A stretch of 32,277 bases of DNA from a virus. The notes below the pieces were generated by a model. That model was not told where the DNA came from. It searched no databases and saw nothing but the letters and a program-made list of their open reading frames with translations. The stretch is taken from IMG/VR virus record IMGVR_UViG_3300002460_000018, positions 1 through 32,277 of that record, one strand, 5' to 3'. Within the stretch, counting starts at the first letter, position 1; every line of letters begins with the position of its first letter. Made by a program: the position numbers and the translations under genes. This document shows positions 9,897 to 21,773 of the stretch, piece by piece.

Positions 9897-12506
9897 TTAC
9901 ACACCGGTTACCCATTGTACGACTGGGTTAAATATATCAATTGGGGGTTTATCGTCTTTTTTCGAGTCCATAATTCTATCGGAGGCGAATTTCATGAGGC
10001 CATATTGCAATGCGTCATGCGGATGGGAAAATCTATTCTTATTTGGTTTTTCATGAAATCTTTCATCGCCTGAAATAGAAAGACGTTTAAAATGATAACC
10101 ATTTACAAATCCTTTACGAAGAACGGGACAACCTTCACGATTTAATTGCAACGCTGGTTGTCCGTCAATCATAGTATTTAAAAAATATCTAACAGAACTA
10201 ATACGCACTAATGGATCATTTGTGTGCGCAGGATTAGTTGGAATTCCTAATGATGTTAACTCGCCTATACAGCTTAGCTCTTCCATAATCCCATCGCTTG
10301 CCATACCAGCAGGATCTGCTTCTGATGCGCCTATTTTGTTATAAGGAAAATCAATTGGCAAGGAAGGCAACACCACATTCTGCGCAAAAGTTCTAATTCC
10401 CATGTCTTCTGCTAGATACTCTTTAAGGATTAATATTCTTCCACGGGCAGTGAGTTGGAAAACAACACAGGCAGGGGTATTTCCATTCCAACTAGGTTTT
10501 CCATTTCTACGAATATAGAGCACATGATATGGAACATTAAGACAATAAATTTTACCTTTGTATTTTACTTTTCTAAAGTTGCGTCTTAAAAGTTCAGCAC
10601 GTTTTGCGCGTTTTTTTATCGTAACAACCCAGACGCCTTCGCCACTAATTATACGATCAGTTCCATTTTCGTTAATAATACTTAACTGGGGTTTCTGCCA
10701 TCGGTATGATGAATTCCATCCGCACTTTTGAACAATTTCTTGAAGGTCATCCCGCATTTTGATTGATTTAGTTGCAATAGTATGTTCAGAAGCACCATTG
10801 GGACGAATTCGTATATGCCCATCACCTGCTGTATATGAATAAATAAACGCCTTTAGTTCATTAGCAGGCATATCTTTTATTTCTTGAGGAGCAAATTTAT
10901 TCCCAGAAATTCCAAAAGATTTTAAATACAAACCTAACGAGTTATCAGTTACAGTCCACACTCCGCAATCATCTTTAAATCTATAAACCCAATTTAAACC
11001 AGTTTTATTTAATATCTCCTGCATAATGGGATTTTGATTGTTTTGATAAATGGAAATCCTATAACTATTACCAACCTTATAAACGGAACCTTCAGATAAA
11101 TAGAGTCCCATAAATTCTGCAAATTCGTGCGCTTTCATTCCAAAGTATTTAATAGAGTAATCGAAATTGGGTTTCCATTCTGAGCATACATCTACATAGT
11201 GATGACCAGAATGATGCTCAGCTAACCATTGTGCAGATTGAAAATGAACTTTATCTGGAGTGTCACGATATGTAAAAGGAACTCTGTGCTCAGGCGTTAC
11301 ACAAAAATTAACCTCAGTACTCGCCCATTCTAATAATTCCCCTTCGTAATCAAAATCCACTTTAAAATTTATCAGTGTAAATTCCATTTCTTTAGTTTTA
11401 GGATTACGCGTGGCAGCTAAATCAACATGCTCATTTACATCCTTAAATAATTTCCAACCATTATTAGTAAGAACTTCTGTATCGTCTGAATAACACAAAC
11501 CAAAATCCCAACATAAATGAATAGGAATACCCTGAATTGCGACGACATTCTGCGCAGAGTGAATGTCATCGTTATATTCAGGATAAACGCGTTTGCCGCT
11601 CTCAACGATTCCATAGCGTCCTACGCAATATACTTTTATAAAGCCCTCAGATCGTTTCTCTGAAAGCTTTACATAATAATCAGGAGATAGATTTTCATAG
11701 TTATCAGCTAATGGATTTGCAATGTAATTGTGATGAATATCTTTTAAAAGAGTTCCGTCCTCATTTAATTTAAGTCCAGAAGGCTGATGAAATATTTTAT
11801 AATTTTCAGTTGGGTTTAACTCAAAGTCTTTATAAATCCAATGATCCTCATCAGGAGGGTTAGTATCGCAAATAATGCCGGACCAATAAGGTTGATTACA
11901 AAACGCATGAGATGGATAGCGATGATTTACCCGTCCAATTAAATGATGCAAGACCGCTTGAGGAACTTCCGAGAGTTCATTAATGTATGCACCTGTTGCT
12001 TCGATAGATTTAAGCTTGCGTATGTCTTCATCTCGATCCAATGCGATAAAAACAAGCTCAAGCTCAATAATGCCGTGCCCATCATTAAAAGTATGCTCAT
12101 AAGTAAGAAGTGGCTTTTGTCTTTTTTTAATAACACCCAATTCACCAAACCACGTTAACCATGTCTGCAGTGTTGTGCTTTGAAGCTCCCCTGATGTATT
12201 TCTTATGATTAACCATTTTGATTTGCGTCTATTGTTATGCCATTTTGGCATTTTACAGGCTTGTTCTACAATTTTATGAATGCACATAGTTGACTTACCA
12301 GATCCATAGGCACCCATTACCAGCTGGACAAATGTATCGTCTTTGCCAAATGCAGCTCCTGTAATGCTCGGTTTATATATTCTGTTTTTATCATGCAAAA
12401 ATAATACTGTATGATCTTTCTCAAACTGAATATGCTGCACATCTTCTCGCGCAAATGAAGAGCGCATTTGTTCAAATTCATTTTGTATTTGAGAAAGGGA
12501 GATCAT
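9897..12506 (-). CDS. Large terminase subunit interrupted by an intein, 869-aa precursor
   Basis: The ATPase/nuclease motor that packages DNA. Walker A is GAYGSGKS (residues 65-72), the Walker B-type segment is GAYINELSE (172-180). The RuvC-like nuclease has D334 in CWDFG, D731 in EADPAG and D831 in HPHDALQYG. Residues 338-676 are an intein; splicing joins WDFGL to TPACVVF, restoring the usual WDFGLTPAC motif and a 530-aa protein, close to other terminases (P22 gp2 is 499 aa). Its start overlaps the stop of the zinc-ribbon gene (ATGA). Confidence 0.93.
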   Translation of the reverse strand: MISLSQIQNEFEQMRSSFAREDVQHIQFEKDHTVLFLHDKNRIYKPSITGAAFGKDDTFVQLVMGAYGSGKSTMCIHKIVEQACKMPKWHNNRRKSKWLIIRNTSGELQSTTLQTWLTWFGELGVIKKRQKPLLTYEHTFNDGHGIIELELVFIALDRDEDIRKLKSIEATGAYINELSEVPQAVLHHLIGRVNHRYPSHAFCNQPYWSGIICDTNPPDEDHWIYKDFELNPTENYKIFHQPSGLKLNEDGTLLKDIHHNYIANPLADNYENLSPDYYVKLSEKRSEGFIKVYCVGRYGIVESGKRVYPEYNDDIHSAQNVVAIQGIPIHLCWDFGLCYSDDTEVLTNNGWKLFKDVNEHVDLAATRNPKTKEMEFTLINFKVDFDYEGELLEWASTEVNFCVTPEHRVPFTYRDTPDKVHFQSAQWLAEHHSGHHYVDVCSEWKPNFDYSIKYFGMKAHEFAEFMGLYLSEGSVYKVGNSYRISIYQNNQNPIMQEILNKTGLNWVYRFKDDCGVWTVTDNSLGLYLKSFGISGNKFAPQEIKDMPANELKAFIYSYTAGDGHIRIRPNGASEHTIATKSIKMRDDLQEIVQKCGWNSSYRWQKPQLSIINENGTDRIISGEGVWVVTIKKRAKRAELLRRNFRKVKYKGKIYCLNVPYHVLYIRRNGKPSWNGNTPACVVFQLTARGRILILKEYLAEDMGIRTFAQNVVLPSLPIDFPYNKIGASEADPAGMASDGIMEELSCIGELTSLGIPTNPAHTNDPLVRISSVRYFLNTMIDGQPALQLNREGCPVLRKGFVNGYHFKRLSISGDERFHEKPNKNRFSHPHDALQYGLMKFASDRIMDSKKDDKPPIDIFNPVVQWVTGV
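10479..11495 (-). mobile_element. Intein with LAGLIDADG homing endonuclease in terL, 339 aa
   Basis: Begins at Cys338 (CYSDDTEVLTNNGW, block A), with block B FCVTPEHRV (T404, H407). Two LAGLIDADG motifs, FMGLYLSEGS (E472) and FIYSYTAGDGH (D562), about 90 residues apart, mark a homing endonuclease with both acidic residues kept. The end is IYCLNVPYHVLYIRRNGK...WNGN, with Asn676 last and Thr677 as the first C-extein residue. The penultimate residue is Gly rather than the usual His. All catalytic positions look intact, so it is probably active in splicing. Confidence 0.92.
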
Positions 12507-12670: not shown

Positions 12671-12864
12671 TTTTTATTTTTACGTATGTGAGCTAACGTT
12701 TGAGCAAGCGTAACTTGTTTTTGAATCTTTGGATTTTTACTCTTTGCCGCTTTCGCCATTTTCTTAGCGGGAATTTTTTCGCCTAAAGGAACGCCCAGTT
12801 CTTTGTGAAGTTTACCTTTACTGGATTTTGGTAAAGCCTTTTGAATCCATTTCTTGTCAGCCAT
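12667..12864 (-). CDS. Small basic phage protein, 65 aa
   Basis: A lysine-rich protein with KGKLHKELGVPLGEKIPAKKMA followed by TLAQTLAHIRKN. The LHxxLGVPxGxKIP core recurs in small basic proteins of many phages; function is unknown. AGGGAGG lies before the ATG inside the end of the HNH gene (8-bp overlap), and its stop overlaps the zinc-ribbon start. A truncated-looking relative of its N-terminus lies beyond the HNH gene at 13403-13450. Confidence 0.8.
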   Translation of the reverse strand: MADKKWIQKALPKSSKGKLHKELGVPLGEKIPAKKMAKAAKSKNPKIQKQVTLAQTLAHIRKNKK

Positions 12865-13375
12865 AAACGCCTCCCTTCAATATCAAATTCGCTAACTTCG
12901 GATACTCTTTCGCGTGGCACTGAACGCATAAAATAATAATATTCGTCTTTTCATTTACTAACTCTGGATGATTAGCATAACTCAAAATGTGATGTCCCTG
13001 TAATTTCTCAGTTGAACTACACTTTTGACATTCTTTTATTTCTTTTCGTAATTCCTTTATTGCTTTACGCGTCCAGTGGGGTCTTTCAGATATCCCACCA
13101 TTCCATTTTGGATGCCTATTCCCTTTAACGCATAATCCAGTATATGTTCGTCTGCATTCAGTAGAGCAACACTTCGTTATCTCTGCCTGGTATCTCTTTA
13201 CAACGTATTCCTTTTCGCAAATAACACATTTCTTTTTAACTTTAAAACTCTTCCCTGGTTTCTTAGAAGTGCAAGATCGAGAACAGAATTTACCAAGGCG
13301 ATCATGCCTTGCGTGAAATTCCTTATCGCATCTCTCGCAATTTCTTTTTATTAAGCCTGTTCCCCACTTTCCCAT
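12857..13375 (-). CDS. HNH homing-type endonuclease with zinc fingers, 172 aa
   Basis: Two Cys4 finger units come first (CERCDKEFH...FCSRSC and CVICEKEYV...CCSTEC), then GNRHPKWNGG, a segment common in phage homing endonucleases. The HNH core follows: CQKCSSTEKLQGHHILSYANHPEL...NIIILCVQCHAKEYP. The ATG at 13375 has AAGAAG at good spacing; a GTG six bases upstream is less likely. It sits between a 15-codon stump and a small basic gene, as expected of a freestanding mobile endonuclease. Confidence 0.88.
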   Translation of the reverse strand: MGKWGTGLIKRNCERCDKEFHARHDRLGKFCSRSCTSKKPGKSFKVKKKCVICEKEYVVKRYQAEITKCCSTECRRTYTGLCVKGNRHPKWNGGISERPHWTRKAIKELRKEIKECQKCSSTEKLQGHHILSYANHPELVNEKTNIIILCVQCHAKEYPKLANLILKGGVYG

Positions 13376-13402
13376 ATTCACTTCTTAAAAGTGGATAGGC
13401 TA

Positions 13403-15914: not shown

Positions 15915-16235
15915 TTATTCAGCGTCTTTCAAAGATTTGTGATAAAGCAAATGATGTTTTCGACAAAACCATAAAATGTCATAAGGCTTAGAATAATCTT
16001 CATGATGCGCCTCTACATTCAGATCCCCACATTTTTCGCAAGGTAATTTTTTTAATAAGCCTCGTCGAATTCGCATTTTAGTTTTTGATCTAACGCGCCC
16101 TTTAAATTTTTGCTCTTCGTTCGGTGGATGGGTTTTTCTATATTCTCTCATGTATGCATTCTTACAAGTTTTGCAATAGCGGGGATCGCCAAAATTAATT
16201 TTTGTTGTGCAGCGAGCACATTTATCTATAATCAT
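15915..16235 (-). CDS. HNH-type zinc-finger protein, 106 aa
   Basis: An N-terminal Cys4 knuckle (CARCTTKINFGDPRYCKTC), a basic linker (RVRSKTKMRIRRGLLKK) and a CEKCGDLNVEAHHEDYSKPYD core with WFCRKHHLLYH. The AHHxDYxKPxD...CxxHH pattern is the compact HNH version found in many phages near lysis or replication genes. It may act as a nicking or homing endonuclease. AGGA precedes the ATG at nine bases. It is the last gene before the 15875 terminator. Confidence 0.8.
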   Translation of the reverse strand: MIIDKCARCTTKINFGDPRYCKTCKNAYMREYRKTHPPNEEQKFKGRVRSKTKMRIRRGLLKKLPCEKCGDLNVEAHHEDYSKPYDILWFCRKHHLLYHKSLKDAE

Positions 16236-16278: not shown

Positions 16279-16620
16279 TTAACTGATATCTAAAGCTCTC
16301 TTAACCCACTTCATTGCTTGTCCCGTGATGAGATGATACTTAGTTACGCGTAGGACAATAAATCCCATTAATGCAGCTTCGTTGTATTTTTCAGCATCGG
16401 CCGTAAATCCTTTTGCTGAGGTGTGACGAGATTTAGAGAAAATACCTCCTTCAATTTCCAGTATGAGGCCTTTCAAGGGAAATCGCTCAGGAGGAAAAAT
16501 CCAAACAAAGTCAGAACGCCACCTACGATCTTCACAGAATCGAAACTCACGTATCGGCTCCGGTAGCCCTGCTTCTTTGATTAACGCCTCTGCAATGCGT
16601 TCTAAATAGCTTTTACTCAT
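16279..16620 (-). CDS. PD-(D/E)XK-type nuclease, 113 aa
   Basis: Motifs in order: GLPEPIREFRF, RRWRSDFVW (D37), LILEIEGG (E55/E57), KSRHT...GFTADAEKYNEAALMGFIVLRVT (H66, K78). The D-x(n)-E-x-E-GG and RHT-GF-x2-D-x-EKYN layout is a common phage nuclease family of the restriction-endonuclease fold, found beside replication genes and perhaps processing branched DNA. I use the ATG at 16620 (MSKSYLERI) with GGAAGGAAG upstream; it overlaps the helicase end by 8 bp. Confidence 0.8.
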   Translation of the reverse strand: MSKSYLERIAEALIKEAGLPEPIREFRFCEDRRWRSDFVWIFPPERFPLKGLILEIEGGIFSKSRHTSAKGFTADAEKYNEAALMGFIVLRVTKYHLITGQAMKWVKRALDIS

Positions 16621-17548
16621 TTCTTCCTTCCATGTAATTAAATGGCCTTTCAGTTTCATATTCTTTTAGGACGGTAAATCTTTTATCGTAATAAAGAGAT
16701 GCTCGAAATAACTCACCAATTTCTCTTTTTTTATCCCGCATAATTATTGAGTCACCAAAAGCTAAAGATTTTTCTTCCGCATCTGTTAACTCGCAATTTT
16801 CTTTTAACTTTGCATTTGCTCTTATTTTTGTATTATTGATGGTAACTGATATGTGATTATCAACCATATTCACGATATTACTGCTTCCAGAAACGTCATA
16901 CATTCCAGGGCAGGGAAGGTCTCTATTTACAGCAGGCTTTTTAGAATGCGCAACTAATATGACGCAAACATTTCTTTCTTTTGAAAACTGCAAAAGCTTC
17001 TGAGTAATCTCATGTTGTTTTTTAAAGTCATCCACCAATGAATTGAGCATCATCAAATTGTCAAAAACGAATAAATCACACCCAGCATATTCACAAGCTA
17101 TTCTCGCACTCTCTATCAAGCAATCAATATCAGCATGACCAAGCAAATCATAAGTGAATATTTTCTTGTCATAAAAATTATAGCATTTAGTCAGATATTC
17201 AAATGTTGGATCAATAACACCAGTGGCTTGCCGGTATAACCTTCCCCATAAATTACCCGTAGATAACTCAAGGCTTGCGATAAAGGCTCTCGCACCTTGC
17301 TTAACGCAATGCAATGCAATATGGTTAACAAACTCTGATTTTCCGTGACCCGTATAGCCAGATATGATAGTCATCTCACCTTTTGCGATCAGAAAAGAAT
17401 TTCGTAATTTTTTCCATGGCAATTCATATCCAGTTTGCTTTTCTTGAAACCATTGCCAAGCATCTAATCGAGCATCCCAGGCGCTTACAACATTTGCACT
17501 GAGTAACGAGCGATGAACCTCATCAGTAAATAAAATCTCTTTTTCCAT
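16613..17548 (-). CDS. Replicative DNA helicase, DnaB/RecA fold, 311 aa
   Basis: Walker A GYTGHGKS (64-71), catalytic-type E94 in ASLELS, Walker B LFVFDN (159-164) and the sensor ILVAHSKKP (197-204) are clear. It corresponds to the C-terminal ATPase of DnaB or T7 gp4 without a primase domain or DnaB N-domain. With the initiator immediately upstream (one base between genes) it forms the replication pair, comparable to lambda O/P or P22 genes 18/12. It would be the hexameric helicase loaded at the iterons in the initiator gene. Confidence 0.9.
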   Translation of the reverse strand: MEKEILFTDEVHRSLLSANVVSAWDARLDAWQWFQEKQTGYELPWKKLRNSFLIAKGEMTIISGYTGHGKSEFVNHIALHCVKQGARAFIASLELSTGNLWGRLYRQATGVIDPTFEYLTKCYNFYDKKIFTYDLLGHADIDCLIESARIACEYAGCDLFVFDNLMMLNSLVDDFKKQHEITQKLLQFSKERNVCVILVAHSKKPAVNRDLPCPGMYDVSGSSNIVNMVDNHISVTINNTKIRANAKLKENCELTDAEEKSLAFGDSIIMRDKKREIGELFRASLYYDKRFTVLKEYETERPFNYMEGRNE

Positions 17549-17549
17549 T

Positions 17550-18257
17550 TTAACCCATTCCCACTTCGTGAATAGATGATTGTTTTTTGGTCAAACATGA
17601 TTTGCAGTCTTTGTGGCTCAACTCCAATTCATCTTCCCAACCCTTGTTTCTCAAATAAACGTCCGGTGCGGGTATGTATTGTTTTTGCTGACCTTTGCAA
17701 GCAACCCAATTCATTTGGCATTTCTTTCGTTGTTCAATATTTGCCTTTATATCGTCAGAGCACACCCACAGTTTTTTTTCGTTCCATATTTTTAATGCTC
17801 GATCCTTTTTAACTTTCTTTGGATAAGTCTTATAAAAATCTGAAAACAAATTATCACTGTCATGGTCATTCTCCGAATGGCCAAGTTCTATTGGAGGTTC
17901 TTTCTGTAGGTTATCTTTAGAGGGGTGAACGCCGTTCACTCTCTGGGGTGAATGCTGTTCACTCTCAGAGTGAACGCGGTGCACCCTATCAAGGTCAAAT
18001 TTATAAAGATTTGATGTATCTCGACCGTTCGAATGAACTCGACTTGTCTTAATAAGATAACCAAGCTTAACCAATTTTTTTACAGTATTTATTGCAGATC
18101 GTTCAGTGATTGAACAAAATTTTGCGATTGTTGGGTATGATGGCCACGCCTCATCGTCTGAGTTTGCATAATTGGCCATAGCGAATAATACATATTTTAA
18201 AAGATGTTTATTTTTAAAATCTAATTCGCTAACTTTTGTTATCATTTTTAATGACAT
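17550..18257 (-). CDS. Replication initiator with winged helix, 235 aa
   Basis: Residues 1-90 form a winged helix-turn-helix (KYVLFAMANYANSDDEAWPSYPTIAKFC...RSAINTVKKLVKLGYLIKTSR), as in lambda-O-like initiators. The linker at about residues 90-113 is encoded by DNA carrying three iterons. The C-terminal part (FSDFYKTYPKKVKKDRALKIW...APDVYLRNKGWEDEL) is a motif of many phage replication proteins, probably helicase-contacting. AAGGAAGG precedes the ATG and overlaps the stop of the 51-aa gene. Confidence 0.85.
   Translation of the reverse strand: MSLKMITKVSELDFKNKHLLKYVLFAMANYANSDDEAWPSYPTIAKFCSITERSAINTVKKLVKLGYLIKTSRVHSNGRDTSNLYKFDLDRVHRVHSESEQHSPQRVNGVHPSKDNLQKEPPIELGHSENDHDSDNLFSDFYKTYPKKVKKDRALKIWNEKKLWVCSDDIKANIEQRKKCQMNWVACKGQQKQYIPAPDVYLRNKGWEDELELSHKDCKSCLTKKQSSIHEVGMG
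17925..17984. other. Three palindromic iterons within the initiator gene: candidate replication origin
   Basis: Three 15-bp near-palindromes lie at 17925-17939 (GTGAACGCCGTTCAC), 17948-17962 (GTGAATGCTGTTCAC) and 17970-17984 (GTGAACGCGGTGCAC), starts 23 and 22 bp apart, about two helical turns. They fall in the linker region of the initiator gene, as the iterons of lambda ori fall inside gene O. Spacing is not a multiple of three, so they are not explained as a protein repeat. Confidence 0.75.
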
Positions 18258-18267
18258 AAAACCTTCC

Positions 18268-18423
18268 TTAGTAATTGAGATGAAGTTTCAATGATCTGAT
18301 ATTTGAACCATATAAGTCATCAAGCGGTATAAACAATTTGCAATACGCGAATCGCAAATGAGAATCCATTTCTGACCACAGGAATGAGGGGAGAATATTT
18401 ACAATTTCTGTCCAATTAAGCAT
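18268..18423 (-). CDS. Unknown 51-aa protein, first gene of the leftward early operon
   Basis: MLNWTEIVNILPSFLWSEMD...LFIPLDDLYGSNIRSLKLHLNY. AAAGGA sits seven bases before the ATG, and its end (TAAGGAAGG) supplies the ribosome-binding site of the initiator gene ten bases later, so the two are coupled. Neutral, aromatic-rich, without a clear domain or membrane segment. It might be a small replication accessory or leader protein. Confidence 0.62.
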   Translation of the reverse strand: MLNWTEIVNILPSFLWSEMDSHLRFAYCKLFIPLDDLYGSNIRSLKLHLNY

Positions 18424-18517
18424 GACAAATCCTTTATCAATAATTAATAAAAAATTAAATCTTAATTTGACTCGAAAATTGATTGAGAATCGGGAAGGAT
18501 GGTATATTATTCTCGAT

Positions 18518-18544
18518 TCTTAATTATCTCGAATATAATTAAGA
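18518..18544. promoter_or_regulatory. Palindromic candidate operator
   Basis: Perfect 10-bp inverted arms TCTTAATTAT (18518-18527) and ATAATTAAGA (18535-18544) flank the 7-bp centre CTCGAAT. In the leftward leader RNA it could also form a hairpin, but there is no T-run to act as a terminator. CTCGA also occurs at 18471 and 18512, suggesting repeated protein-binding sites. Confidence 0.5.
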
Positions 18545-18557
18545 TACTTTTAGCGGC

Positions 18558-18577
18558 GGGCGTTTACTACAACGCCC
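18558..18577. other. Hairpin in the control region
   Basis: GGGCGTT and AACGCCC (7-bp arms, 6-base loop TACTAC) form a G+C-rich stem in otherwise A+T-rich DNA. No T-run follows on either strand. It resembles the hairpins at 19450 and 23893 in its GGCG/CGCC core and may be an attenuator or RNA-processing signal. Confidence 0.4.
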
Positions 18578-18662
18578 AAAGCGTTCAACCATTCTGCACT
18601 ATCCGTATAACATTTCAAGCATAATGTACTGTTTTAGAAAATAAATTTCCCATAAGTTCGAT

Positions 18663-18703
18663 ATATAAAATGTTCTAGCATTTGAATGTCAATGTGCTAT
18701 GAT
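18663..18703. promoter_or_regulatory. Overlapping divergent early promoters with TAGCA operator
   Basis: Leftward: consensus -35 TTGACA (18692-18687 on the minus strand), 18-bp spacer, -10 TTATAT (18668-18663). Rightward: extended -10 TGCTATGAT (hexamer at 18698-18703), about 30 bp before the RHH start. The inverted half-sites TAGCA (18676-18680) and TGCTA (18695-18699) lie between and over both promoters. TCTAGCAT recurs at 18914-18921 after the RHH gene. Confidence 0.6.
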
Positions 18704-18732
18704 AACCAAAATTTCAAAGAAGAGGTAAGAAA

Positions 18733-18891
18733 ATGGCCAAAACACCTGATATCAAAAAATTCAATGTAAAATTGCATTTTCAACTGTGGCTGCATTTAAA
18801 AACATTTGCGATGAAGAATAATTCAACCATGAATGGATTAATTGTAGATTTAATTGAATCCCATCGAAAAAGAAATGAAAAAAATACTTGA
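18733..18891 (+). CDS. Ribbon-helix-helix regulator, Arc-like, 52 aa
   Basis: MAKTPDIKKFNVKLHFQLWLHLKTFAMKNNSTMNGLIVDLIESHRKR shows the RHH layout: strand KKFNVKLH, helix A, turn (NNSTMN), helix B. Length matches Arc. GAGG precedes the ATG after a leader of roughly 25 bases. As the first rightward gene beside overlapping divergent promoters it is the best candidate for the early repressor, controlling itself and the leftward replication operon. The second RHH protein (14532-14699) is a distant relative. Confidence 0.78.
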   Translation: MAKTPDIKKFNVKLHFQLWLHLKTFAMKNNSTMNGLIVDLIESHRKRNEKNT

Positions 18892-18900
18892 CGCATGGAA

Positions 18901-18935
18901 AGTATCTTGATACTCTAGCATCACTTAAATAAAAC
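18901..18935 (+). promoter_or_regulatory. Rightward promoter overlapped by a palindrome
   Basis: AGTATCTTGATACT (18901-18914), arms AGTATC/GATACT, covers the -35 TTGATA (18907-18912). A 17-bp spacer leads to -10 TAAAAC (18930-18935), just before the 134-aa gene. The spacer contains TCTAGCAT (18914-18921), also seen at 18674-18681. This would drive the recombination operon separately from the RHH gene. Confidence 0.5.
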
Positions 18936-18949
18936 TAAGGAAATGGAAC

Positions 18950-19523: not shown

Positions 19524-20363
19524 ATGTTAACTGAAAAACAGAAAAAGATAAGAATGTCGGGAATTGGGGCTAGCGAATGCAGCACTCTTTTTAATCTCAA
19601 TGAGTACAGCACAGTTTACCAGCTGTGGCTTCTAAAAACGGGTATGGCTGAGCCAGAACCTGAAAACGACAACATGTGGTGGGGCACAAATTTAGAACCC
19701 GTTATACGTCATCGTTATGAGAAAGAAACCGATAAAGTTGTAACCTACGATCCTGAAACTAAATTCTGCGATCTCTCTCCTTACATGATGTGCCATCTTG
19801 ATGGAATGCTCCCAGATGAAAAGAAACTGTTAGAGATTAAGACGGCTCGATACAATCAATCTCATTGGGGCGAAGCTGGTAGCTCAGAAATTCCACCGCA
19901 ATATACTATCCAATGTCAGCATCAATTAGCATGTATGCCTGGATATGAATCAGTAGATTTATGTGTTTTCTTTTGGCAAACAAAATCAATTGTTATTTAC
20001 AATATTAAACGCAATGAAGAAATCATTTCTAAAATTATTTCTGGCGTAAATAAATTTTGGAAAGATCATGTATTGCCGAGACTCGCACCGGATCTTTATA
20101 CAATTGAAGATGTGAAACTTGCTTATCCATTAAATAATCATGAGTTTGTGGAAGCTTCTCCGGTTGAAGTCTTTGCTCATGAGAAATTAATTGATTTTAG
20201 AAAGAAGCTTAAAAAATTGGAAGAAGAAGAGCTTTCTTATAAAACAGATTTAATAATTATGACTGGCGCTAATTCTGGTATTAAAAACAATGGCGATCTT
20301 CTTTGCACCTACAAAGCAAATAAAAATGGCGTTAGAAATTTTATATTATATGGGGAAAGTTAA
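19524..20363 (+). CDS. YqaJ/lambda-exo-type recombination exonuclease, 279 aa
   Basis: GIGASECS (13-20), MWWGTNLEPVIRHRY (51-65, E58), CHLDGM (D93) and LLEIKTA (E104, K106) are the YqaJ family signatures, giving the D-x10-E-x-K active site of the lambda exonuclease fold. PPQYTIQCQHQL follows, as usual. It degrades one strand of duplex ends to produce ssDNA for the RecT-type annealing protein encoded three genes downstream. AGGA lies nine bases before the ATG. Confidence 0.92.
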   Translation: MLTEKQKKIRMSGIGASECSTLFNLNEYSTVYQLWLLKTGMAEPEPENDNMWWGTNLEPVIRHRYEKETDKVVTYDPETKFCDLSPYMMCHLDGMLPDEKKLLEIKTARYNQSHWGEAGSSEIPPQYTIQCQHQLACMPGYESVDLCVFFWQTKSIVIYNIKRNEEIISKIISGVNKFWKDHVLPRLAPDLYTIEDVKLAYPLNNHEFVEASPVEVFAHEKLIDFRKKLKKLEEEELSYKTDLIIMTGANSGIKNNGDLLCTYKANKNGVRNFILYGES

Positions 20364-20364
20364 G

Positions 20365-20589
20365 ATGAATGATAAATCTATTTTAGATGCTTTTAAATAT
20401 TTAAATGATGAGATAATAAGCATACGAAGTAAATTGTGGGATGAAGGTGAAGAAGTAAAAGAAAATACTTACCGACAGATAATGAGTCTTCATAACGATA
20501 TAAAAACTATTTTCGAAATGATTGATAATCTTACGATTATGTCGAAAAAATTAGCATGGATAATAGAAAATCAATTTAAGGTGCATTAA
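20365..20589 (+). CDS. Unknown small helical protein, 74 aa
   Basis: MNDKSILDAFKYLNDEIISIRSKLWDEG...NDIKTIFEMIDNLTIMSKKL is almost wholly helical and probably coiled-coil. The ATG at 20365 has GGGGAAAG upstream in the end of the YqaJ gene, one base from its stop. Longer frames upstream lack a start signal. Function unknown; lies between the exonuclease and recT. Confidence 0.7.
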   Translation: MNDKSILDAFKYLNDEIISIRSKLWDEGEEVKENTYRQIMSLHNDIKTIFEMIDNLTIMSKKLAWIIENQFKVH

Positions 20590-20590
20590 A

Positions 20591-20926
20591 ATGAGCAAAA
20601 TATTTAATAATATAGATTTACAAGAAGCCTACACAAATCAAAATGAAATGAATTTTTATTCGGATGAAGAAAAAACCGCTTTCTCTGCTGATATTAAAAC
20701 ATTAGAAGCTTTATTTAGAGACAATCTAAATAATAATTATGAATATATATTAAATTTAACTGAATTATTAATATGGGATAACAGCACAGGCAAAATTCTT
20801 TATAAAAAAGAAGAATATAAGAAAAATCTCATTGAAACTCCATGGGCAGTTAGAAAAATGGCATACGAACATAATTCATTGGGGAATTTTCTAAGAAAGA
20901 TTTCAGATATATTGAGCGGGGAATAA
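20591..20926 (+). CDS. Unknown protein, 111 aa
   Basis: Acidic, Asn-rich protein (MSKIFNNIDLQEAYTNQNEMNF...EALFRDNLNNNYEYILNL) without cysteines or membrane segments. AAGGTG lies before the ATG, one base after the previous stop. Gene density and coupling support it. Position between exonuclease and recT suggests a recombination accessory, but nothing in the sequence shows this. Confidence 0.7.
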   Translation: MSKIFNNIDLQEAYTNQNEMNFYSDEEKTAFSADIKTLEALFRDNLNNNYEYILNLTELLIWDNSTGKILYKKEEYKKNLIETPWAVRKMAYEHNSLGNFLRKISDILSGE

Positions 20927-20930
20927 AAAA

Positions 20931-21773
20931 ATGAACGATTTAAAACCTACTTCCTACTTAGAGCCAACGAATTTTGCAGAAGCTGAGAAATTTGCACATA
21001 TGGTTTCGGAATCTGATTTTGCCCCTAAGGATTTCAAAGGAAAACCCGGAAATATTTTAGTGGCCATGCAATTTGGAAATGAAATTGGATTAAAGCCAAT
21101 GCAAGCACTTCAGAATATTAGCGTCATCAATGGCAAACCTTGTTTGTGGGGCGATGCAGCACTTGGACTTATTCGTTGTCATTCATCTTGTAAAGGCGTC
21201 AAGGAATGGATGGATGGAACGATAAGAGATAATACTGCAATTGCATACTGCGAAGTAATTCGTGGATCTGAGAAGATTTTAAGAAGCTTTTCGATAGACC
21301 AAGCAAGACGAGCAGGATTGCTGAGCAAACAAGGTCCATGGCAATCTTACCCCGAAAGAATGTTGCAAATGAGAGCGCGTGGATTTGCGCTGCGAGATGC
21401 TTATGCAGATTTACTCAAAGGTATGTATTTAAGAGAAGAACTTGAGGGATCAGCTTTTAACGACCAAACAAATGATAGTTTTCCAATCAAAATCGGAAAC
21501 GAAGCAATTAAGAATGAAATAATAGAACAGGAAACAACCAATTTAGGAAGTCGTCAAAAGAGCGATGAAATAATTGAAACAATAAAAGAATGCACCTCAT
21601 ATGATGCTTTACGAGCGATCGGATTAAAAATAAAAGAATCGGCTTTAACTTTAACTGATAAAAAAAGATTGGCTGATTCCTATCGTGAAAAATTATCAAC
21701 CATTAAATCTGAGACGGAAAAATCGGAAGAAACAAATCAGGAAGGAAGCGAAGGACGTGAAACAGAAGAGTAA
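20931..21773 (+). CDS. RecT-family single-strand annealing protein, 280 aa
   Basis: Core motifs of the RecT group are evident: NILVAMQFGNEIGLKPMQAL...NISVINGKPCLWGDAAL (41-77), FSIDQARRAGLLSKQGPWQSYPERMLQMRARGFALRD (120-156). The C-terminal 100 residues are Glu/Lys-rich and less conserved. Such proteins anneal ssDNA made by the partner exonuclease, here YqaJ. GGGGAA precedes the ATG. The end overlaps the GTG start of a zinc-finger gene by 17 bp. Confidence 0.9.
   Translation: MNDLKPTSYLEPTNFAEAEKFAHMVSESDFAPKDFKGKPGNILVAMQFGNEIGLKPMQALQNISVINGKPCLWGDAALGLIRCHSSCKGVKEWMDGTIRDNTAIAYCEVIRGSEKILRSFSIDQARRAGLLSKQGPWQSYPERMLQMRARGFALRDAYADLLKGMYLREELEGSAFNDQTNDSFPIKIGNEAIKNEIIEQETTNLGSRQKSDEIIETIKECTSYDALRAIGLKIKESALTLTDKKRLADSYREKLSTIKSETEKSEETNQEGSEGRETEE

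Follow-up and report, generated by a model that had tools for sequence, protein, structure and literature searches.

Replication origins inside initiator genes

In lambda and the Stx phages, the location of the replication origin inside the initiator gene is established (PMC7466680). Likewise, the origin repeats of the phages TP901-1 and Tuc2009 (PMC8965321) and of SPP1 oriL (PMC6316719) lie within the initiator gene and are bound by its product. For the Staphylococcus phage 80alpha an origin of this kind has been proposed (PMC5499656), and in the RepA_N plasmids (pSK41) the origin is central in rep, between the N-terminal DNA-binding domain and the C-terminal domain, both of which are DnaD-like (PMC5703833).

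The stretch of DNA analysed here (the window) is a full IMG/VR virus record of 32,277 bases. The phage is podovirus-like, with a portal protein ~25% identical to those of Vibrio and Thalassomonas phages. The features of its initiator locus are as follows:

17550..18257, minus strand: replication initiator ORF, 235 aa, with an N-terminal winged helix, a linker and a C-terminal F..FY..YPKK-type region
17997..18206, minus strand: winged-helix domain (aa 18-87; AlphaFold2 pLDDT ~85-95; PF13730 at aa 21-68)
18063..18104, minus strand: recognition helix (aa 52-65) and adjoining T51, from the AlphaFold2 helix position and covariation
17970..17984, unstranded: iteron 1 (numbered along the gene), gene-strand sequence GTGCACCGCGTTCAC
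17948..17962, unstranded: iteron 2, gene-strand sequence GTGAACAGCATTCAC
17925..17939, unstranded: iteron 3, gene-strand sequence GTGAACGGCGTTCAC
17884..17924, minus strand: putative unwinding element AACC-N9-AACC-N8-AACT, immediately 3' of iteron 3 and rich in A on the gene strand
16613..17548, minus strand: DnaB-like helicase gene, 311 aa, adjoining the initiator (PF03796, E 6e-10; phrog_239 DNA primase/helicase)

With high probability, the three repeats are the predicted initiator-binding half of the replication origin of the phage, embedded in the gene of the initiator itself; as putative landing sites for the protein encoded by that gene, the iterons are almost certainly interpreted correctly. 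The locus joins the known class of initiator-gene origins, to which a family-wide specificity rule is added here.

The window resembles the lambda ori in gene O: near-palindromic iterons recur every ~20-24 bp within the linker-coding part, midway along the initiator gene, and an A-rich stretch comes next on the gene strand (PMC7466680). The iterons differ from those of lambda in sequence and length, HTH_36 occurs in place of Phage_rep_O, and the neighbouring gene codes for a DnaB-like helicase, as opposed to the P-type loader of lambda. The parallel with lambda, with a different iteron, had been drawn in a preliminary description of the window, and it is borne out by the position at the junction between winged helix-turn-helix (wHTH) and linker, as in lambda O. 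The protein itself lies outside the lambda O family: no match of the window initiator to PF04492 (Phage_rep_O) was found up to E = 1, and the hhalign probability was 0.3%.

Similar comparisons can be made with the other systems. ORF20 of 80alpha resembles the window in that an annotated putative rep_origin in the initiator gene consists of near-palindromic repeats and then AT-rich repeats, whereas its iterons and HTH differ. This putative origin (L108 9674-9899) contains AAACCGTTAACGGT-type near-palindromes, then ACTAATAAT repeats ~15 nt apart, i.e., the two-part layout of the window in other sequences. The rep gene of TP901-1, in contrast to the window, is without GTGAA iterons, and the RepA_N Pfam profile has no match in the window initiator. 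Weak sequence and fold similarity links the window winged helix with the N-terminal domain of DnaD (PF21984, E 0.02; 2vn2, E 0.0024; 2v79), but DnaD is a host helicase-loading protein and not an iteron-binding initiator.

The initiator ORF (17550-18257) matches PF13730 HTH_36 at aa 21-68 (45.9 bits, cut-off 25, E 4.9e-12) and the phrog_270 replication initiation protein (E 2.2e-32). Beyond the confident winged helix, AlphaFold2 gives a linker that is disordered and only a poor model of the C-terminal region. The helicase of 16613-17548 is probably the one loaded at the putative origin; its role and that of the initiator C-terminal region are proposed on the basis of gene order and by analogy with lambda and SPP1. 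Among viral contigs, the helicase has no close relatives and the initiator has five loci only, which have in common with it the C-terminal region alone and are without GTGAA iterons. The search gave no close relative of the window phage, and iteron conservation was thus tested at the family level only. No host DnaA boxes occur near the iterons, and the window contains three such boxes vs 5.7 expected.

Iterons in the window and in relatives

The window iterons, at positions 17925 (GTGAACGCCGTTCAC), 17948 (GTGAATGCTGTTCAC) and 17970 (GTGAACGCGGTGCAC), all match GTGAANGCNGTNCAC, which has no other exact match in the 32-kb contig. They are encoded at the wHTH-linker junction, directly after the winged helix of the minus-strand initiator, with start-to-start spacings of 23 and 22 bp. 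The three near-palindromes, 22-23 bp apart in a winged-helix initiator gene, are therefore located precisely where the preliminary description had placed them. Its consensus, GTGAAxGCxGTxCAC, requires some qualification: all three copies match it, but the inner GCxG is local to this phage, relatives keep GTGAA-N5-TTCAC, and one arm of iteron 17970 is imperfect (GTGCAC vs GTGAAC).

As neither spacing is divisible by three, the iterons fall, in gene orientation, into codon frames 0, 1 and 0 and are read as VHRVH, (S)EQHS and VNGVH. Three or more GTGAA-N5-TTCAC sites (with at most one mismatch) arose in only 10 of 20,000 synonymous-codon shuffles in which the protein was kept, which argues for selection on the DNA, as the out-of-phase spacing had earlier been taken to imply. 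The observed number of 8-mer repeats at a lag of 20-25 nt was matched in 9 of 20,000 such shuffles. By computation, the window iterons are real, off codon phase, selected as DNA, kept in place in relatives and matched to the helix.

A scan of 2.9 million viral contigs revealed tandem GTGAA-N4-GTnCAC palindromes in 92 stretches. Most of these occupy the central part of ORFs whose N-terminal part is a helix-turn-helix, in very different phages and in both usable frames; many of the encoded proteins are without similarity to the window initiator, and a few of the stretches are collagen-like or unrelated repeats. The viral copies alternate between VNxVH and SExxS(P) peptide readings, with spacings mostly of 21-24 nt. 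The iteron is GTGAA-N5-TTCAC, and dozens of phage initiators that differ widely from one another carry it in tandem at the equivalent place.

Relatives were also sampled protein-first, by HTH alignment, which provided 74 initiators from gammaproteobacterial and other genomes. The iterons had been expected to persist where the protein does, and indeed 68 of the 74 carry a recognised array at the equivalent place, immediately after the HTH. Five iteron types are represented: GTGmA-N5-TkCAC, GGGkCA..TGmCCC, GTAGGC..AGCAC, GTGCC..AGCAC and GTGAC-N5-GTCAC. Visual inspection suggests that the remaining initiators, of no recognised type, carry arrays as well. A second sample, of the Pfam family across one phylum, contained further types, e.g., GTCCCGAAATCGGGAC in L419 and TGCGAAGCTACTTCGCA in L403. 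A broad HTH alignment (A1) was rejected as a scanning profile, being too divergent.

The arrangement extends to plasmids. In the 12.5-kb circular Bacillus smithii plasmid pDSM4216, five GTGAA iterons with spacings of 23/22/23/22 lie in an HTH_36 gene, the only gene of this plasmid with a replication-initiator profile. Equivalent HTH_36 genes and iteron arrangements occur in Clostridioides, Microbulbifer and Shewanella phage-plasmids; those of Clostridioides and Piscirickettsia additionally encode another annotated initiator. In a Paenibacillus crassostreae strain, the plasmids pPC01 and pPC02 harbor an identical initiator, WP_068658774 (L438 5765-6583 and L434 19750-20568), so either the plasmids are compatible regardless or there is an assembly issue. 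The initiator of a 79-kb Piscirickettsia salmonis plasmid (L424 1501-2383) is split by a frameshift; a 42-kb phage-plasmid codes for an intact homologue together with trfA, and its skew minimum is nearer to trfA.

GC skew was rejected as evidence for the origin. The cumulative minimum of the window, near 18 kb, coincides with the switch of coding strand and vanishes at fourfold-degenerate sites, where the window shows no strand bias. In pDSM4216 (amplitude P 0.05) the minimum and the iterons are separated by 29 bp, and in the C. difficile phage-plasmid by 0.9 kb; overall it lies near the iterons in two of seven circular relatives and disagrees in the other five, at distances of 5-10 kb.

Recognition helix and iteron type

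Examination of 71 typed genes shows that the HTH columns most informative on iteron type are 55, 52, 50 and 56 (L310 numbering), all of which fall where the recognition helix begins. In partial Mantel tests, the helix residues scored 0.80 with the rest of the domain controlled for (0 of 999 permutations), and the rest of the domain scored -0.01 with the helix controlled for; rest-of-domain identity was the only control for kinship, in place of a full tree model. The iteron type follows five recognition-helix residues and not the remainder of the domain. In this regard, the pair L318 and L319 is 96% identical outside the helix and wing; their helices (SKRSVMN vs DRSTVRK) and their iteron types differ.

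Prediction of the iteron type from the nearest helix was correct in 95% of cases when all pairs were used and in 71% without pairs of at least 70% HTH identity, compared to a majority class of 63%. Of 46 distinct GTGAA-type helices, taken from divergent phages chosen for their GTGAA iterons, 40 combine R52 with I/V/M/F/Q at position 55, vs 4 of 17 others (P = 4e-6). The corresponding window residues, T51, R53, S54, I56 and N57 (TRSIN), fit the GTGAA-iteron type. The closest full-length relatives of the window initiator, those of Piscirickettsia plasmids (29-32% identity), have the helix SERTVQR and, at the equivalent place, a GTGAC..GTCAC-type palindrome, which is followed by two AACC copies spaced 12 nt. 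This match between helix and iteron is the strongest support for the predicted role of the initiator N-terminal domain as the reader of the iterons.

No earlier description of the helix-iteron correspondence, the GTGAA-N5-TTCAC iterons or the AACC element was found in the literature searched, which did not include the review of Weigel and Seitz (2006), and the general pattern (helix-iteron rule and AACC element) is provisionally regarded as new.

The AACC element and the predicted origin

The AACC element of the window is weakly, and only suggestively, above chance: its AACC pair was matched in 1,091 of 20,000 synonymous shuffles, and a pair of this kind is found in 3 of 378 background coding stretches. 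In relatives the element was scored by counts. Among 45 non-redundant protein-sampled genes, the 60 nt after the last iteron contain 108 copies of AACC vs ~54 from synonymous shuffles, and GGTT is absent from the same 60 nt. A pair of AACC 10-18 nt apart occurs in 33 of the 45 genes vs 29% of shuffles. As the excess is only about twofold, the encoded peptides carry part of it.

AACC repeats directly follow the iterons in most proteobacterial relatives, whatever the iteron type, with a core, AGAACCAGTCACTCTTTTGAACCAGTCAATGAACC, that is common to different types, and AACC runs also occur behind unrelated iterons. Bacillota-type phages have instead an A-rich stretch without AACC, as does lambda. 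Arrays of GAACCA triplets alone are mostly proline-rich coding repeats, with a minority behind iterons, so that the motif is informative only beside iterons. The initiator C-terminal domains 3' of the element (L310-L383) are strongly mosaic, whereas the wHTH and the AACC element stay; the putative origin therefore sits at a module boundary.

The following mechanism is envisaged. The N-terminal winged helix would bind each GTGAA-N5-TTCAC palindrome, probably as a dimer, and at a spacing of 22-23 bp, or about two turns of the helix, the bound initiators would all lie on the same side of the DNA. The complex of initiator and iterons may then open the A-rich AACC-repeat stretch on its 3' side, and the opened strands would be passed to the DnaB-like helicase encoded next door. 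We lean slightly towards a broader interpretation, in which the locus belongs to a very large superfamily of phage and plasmid origins. In such a superfamily, five helix residues would specify an iteron ~100 bp further on in the gene, with protein and site co-evolving in one cassette; the AACC(A) repeats, which recur about once per helical turn and are kept while iterons and C-terminal domains change, would represent a sequence-specific unwinding element that is read single-stranded by a shared factor. The origin iteron is often predictable from the recognition helix, and the lambda parallel becomes a readable rule. For many phages and phage-plasmids that are still uncharacterised, the gene alone can indicate where the origin is, and natural protein pairs open to testing the long-standing question of the joint change of origin and initiator specificity and of the cause of strand opening.

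Palindromic sites of a winged-helix protein would look alike if they were operators, at which the initiator represses or paces its own transcription or blocks RNA polymerase while replication starts elsewhere, and MarR, LexA and other regulators are indeed among the fold and sequence neighbours of the initiator. The sites are located, however, ~270 bp into the gene rather than at a promoter; they are always in tandem at about two helical turns, the conserved AACC element adjoins them in most proteobacterial relatives, and one relative is the only recognisable initiator of the circular plasmid pDSM4216. We consider this explanation unlikely. Recombination sites, serving at the boundary of repeats and AACC element to swap the C-terminal initiator domains, and not an origin, would account for the finding that over 30% of 3-mers are shared by 67% of pairs in the N-terminus vs 2% in the C-terminus. 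Mosaicism is nevertheless expected anyway at a functional module boundary, and the helix-iteron match and the regular two-turn spacing would be left unexplained, which renders this alternative very improbable.

The repeats might also reflect selection on the protein only, with a repeated linker peptide (VNxVH / SExxSP) encoded by DNA that is similar by chance. The linker peptide is indeed repetitive and disordered, but translation of the DNA in two frames yields peptides unrelated to each other, both in the window and in relatives; the DNA is rarely reproduced by synonymous shuffles and has an iteron sequence that tracks the DNA-reading helix. In view of the frame change, this explanation is refuted for practical purposes, its residual probability being negligible. 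The predicted origin is the preferred reading of the repeats.

Several other features of the window were recorded. On the minus strand, the terminase large subunit ORF (9897-12506) is split by a likely intein, with LAGLIDADG_3 at aa 551-604 between the terminase parts; the same strand codes for an HNH-type endonuclease (12857-13381, PF01844) and a small Cys/His-rich protein, HNH-like in look and without a Pfam match (15915-16235). The AT-rich divergent intergenic region 18258-18949 contains an imperfect inverted repeat (18459-18475 / 18529-18545) and, on the plus strand, a 52-aa ORF (18733-18891) whose product weakly matches a ribbon-helix-helix profile (MatP_C, E 0.003); the region has the appearance of a control region for lysis-lysogeny or early functions. 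On the strand opposite to the initiator, 19524-21773 (plus) encodes a pair consisting of a YqaJ/RecE-like exonuclease and a RecT-like annealing protein.
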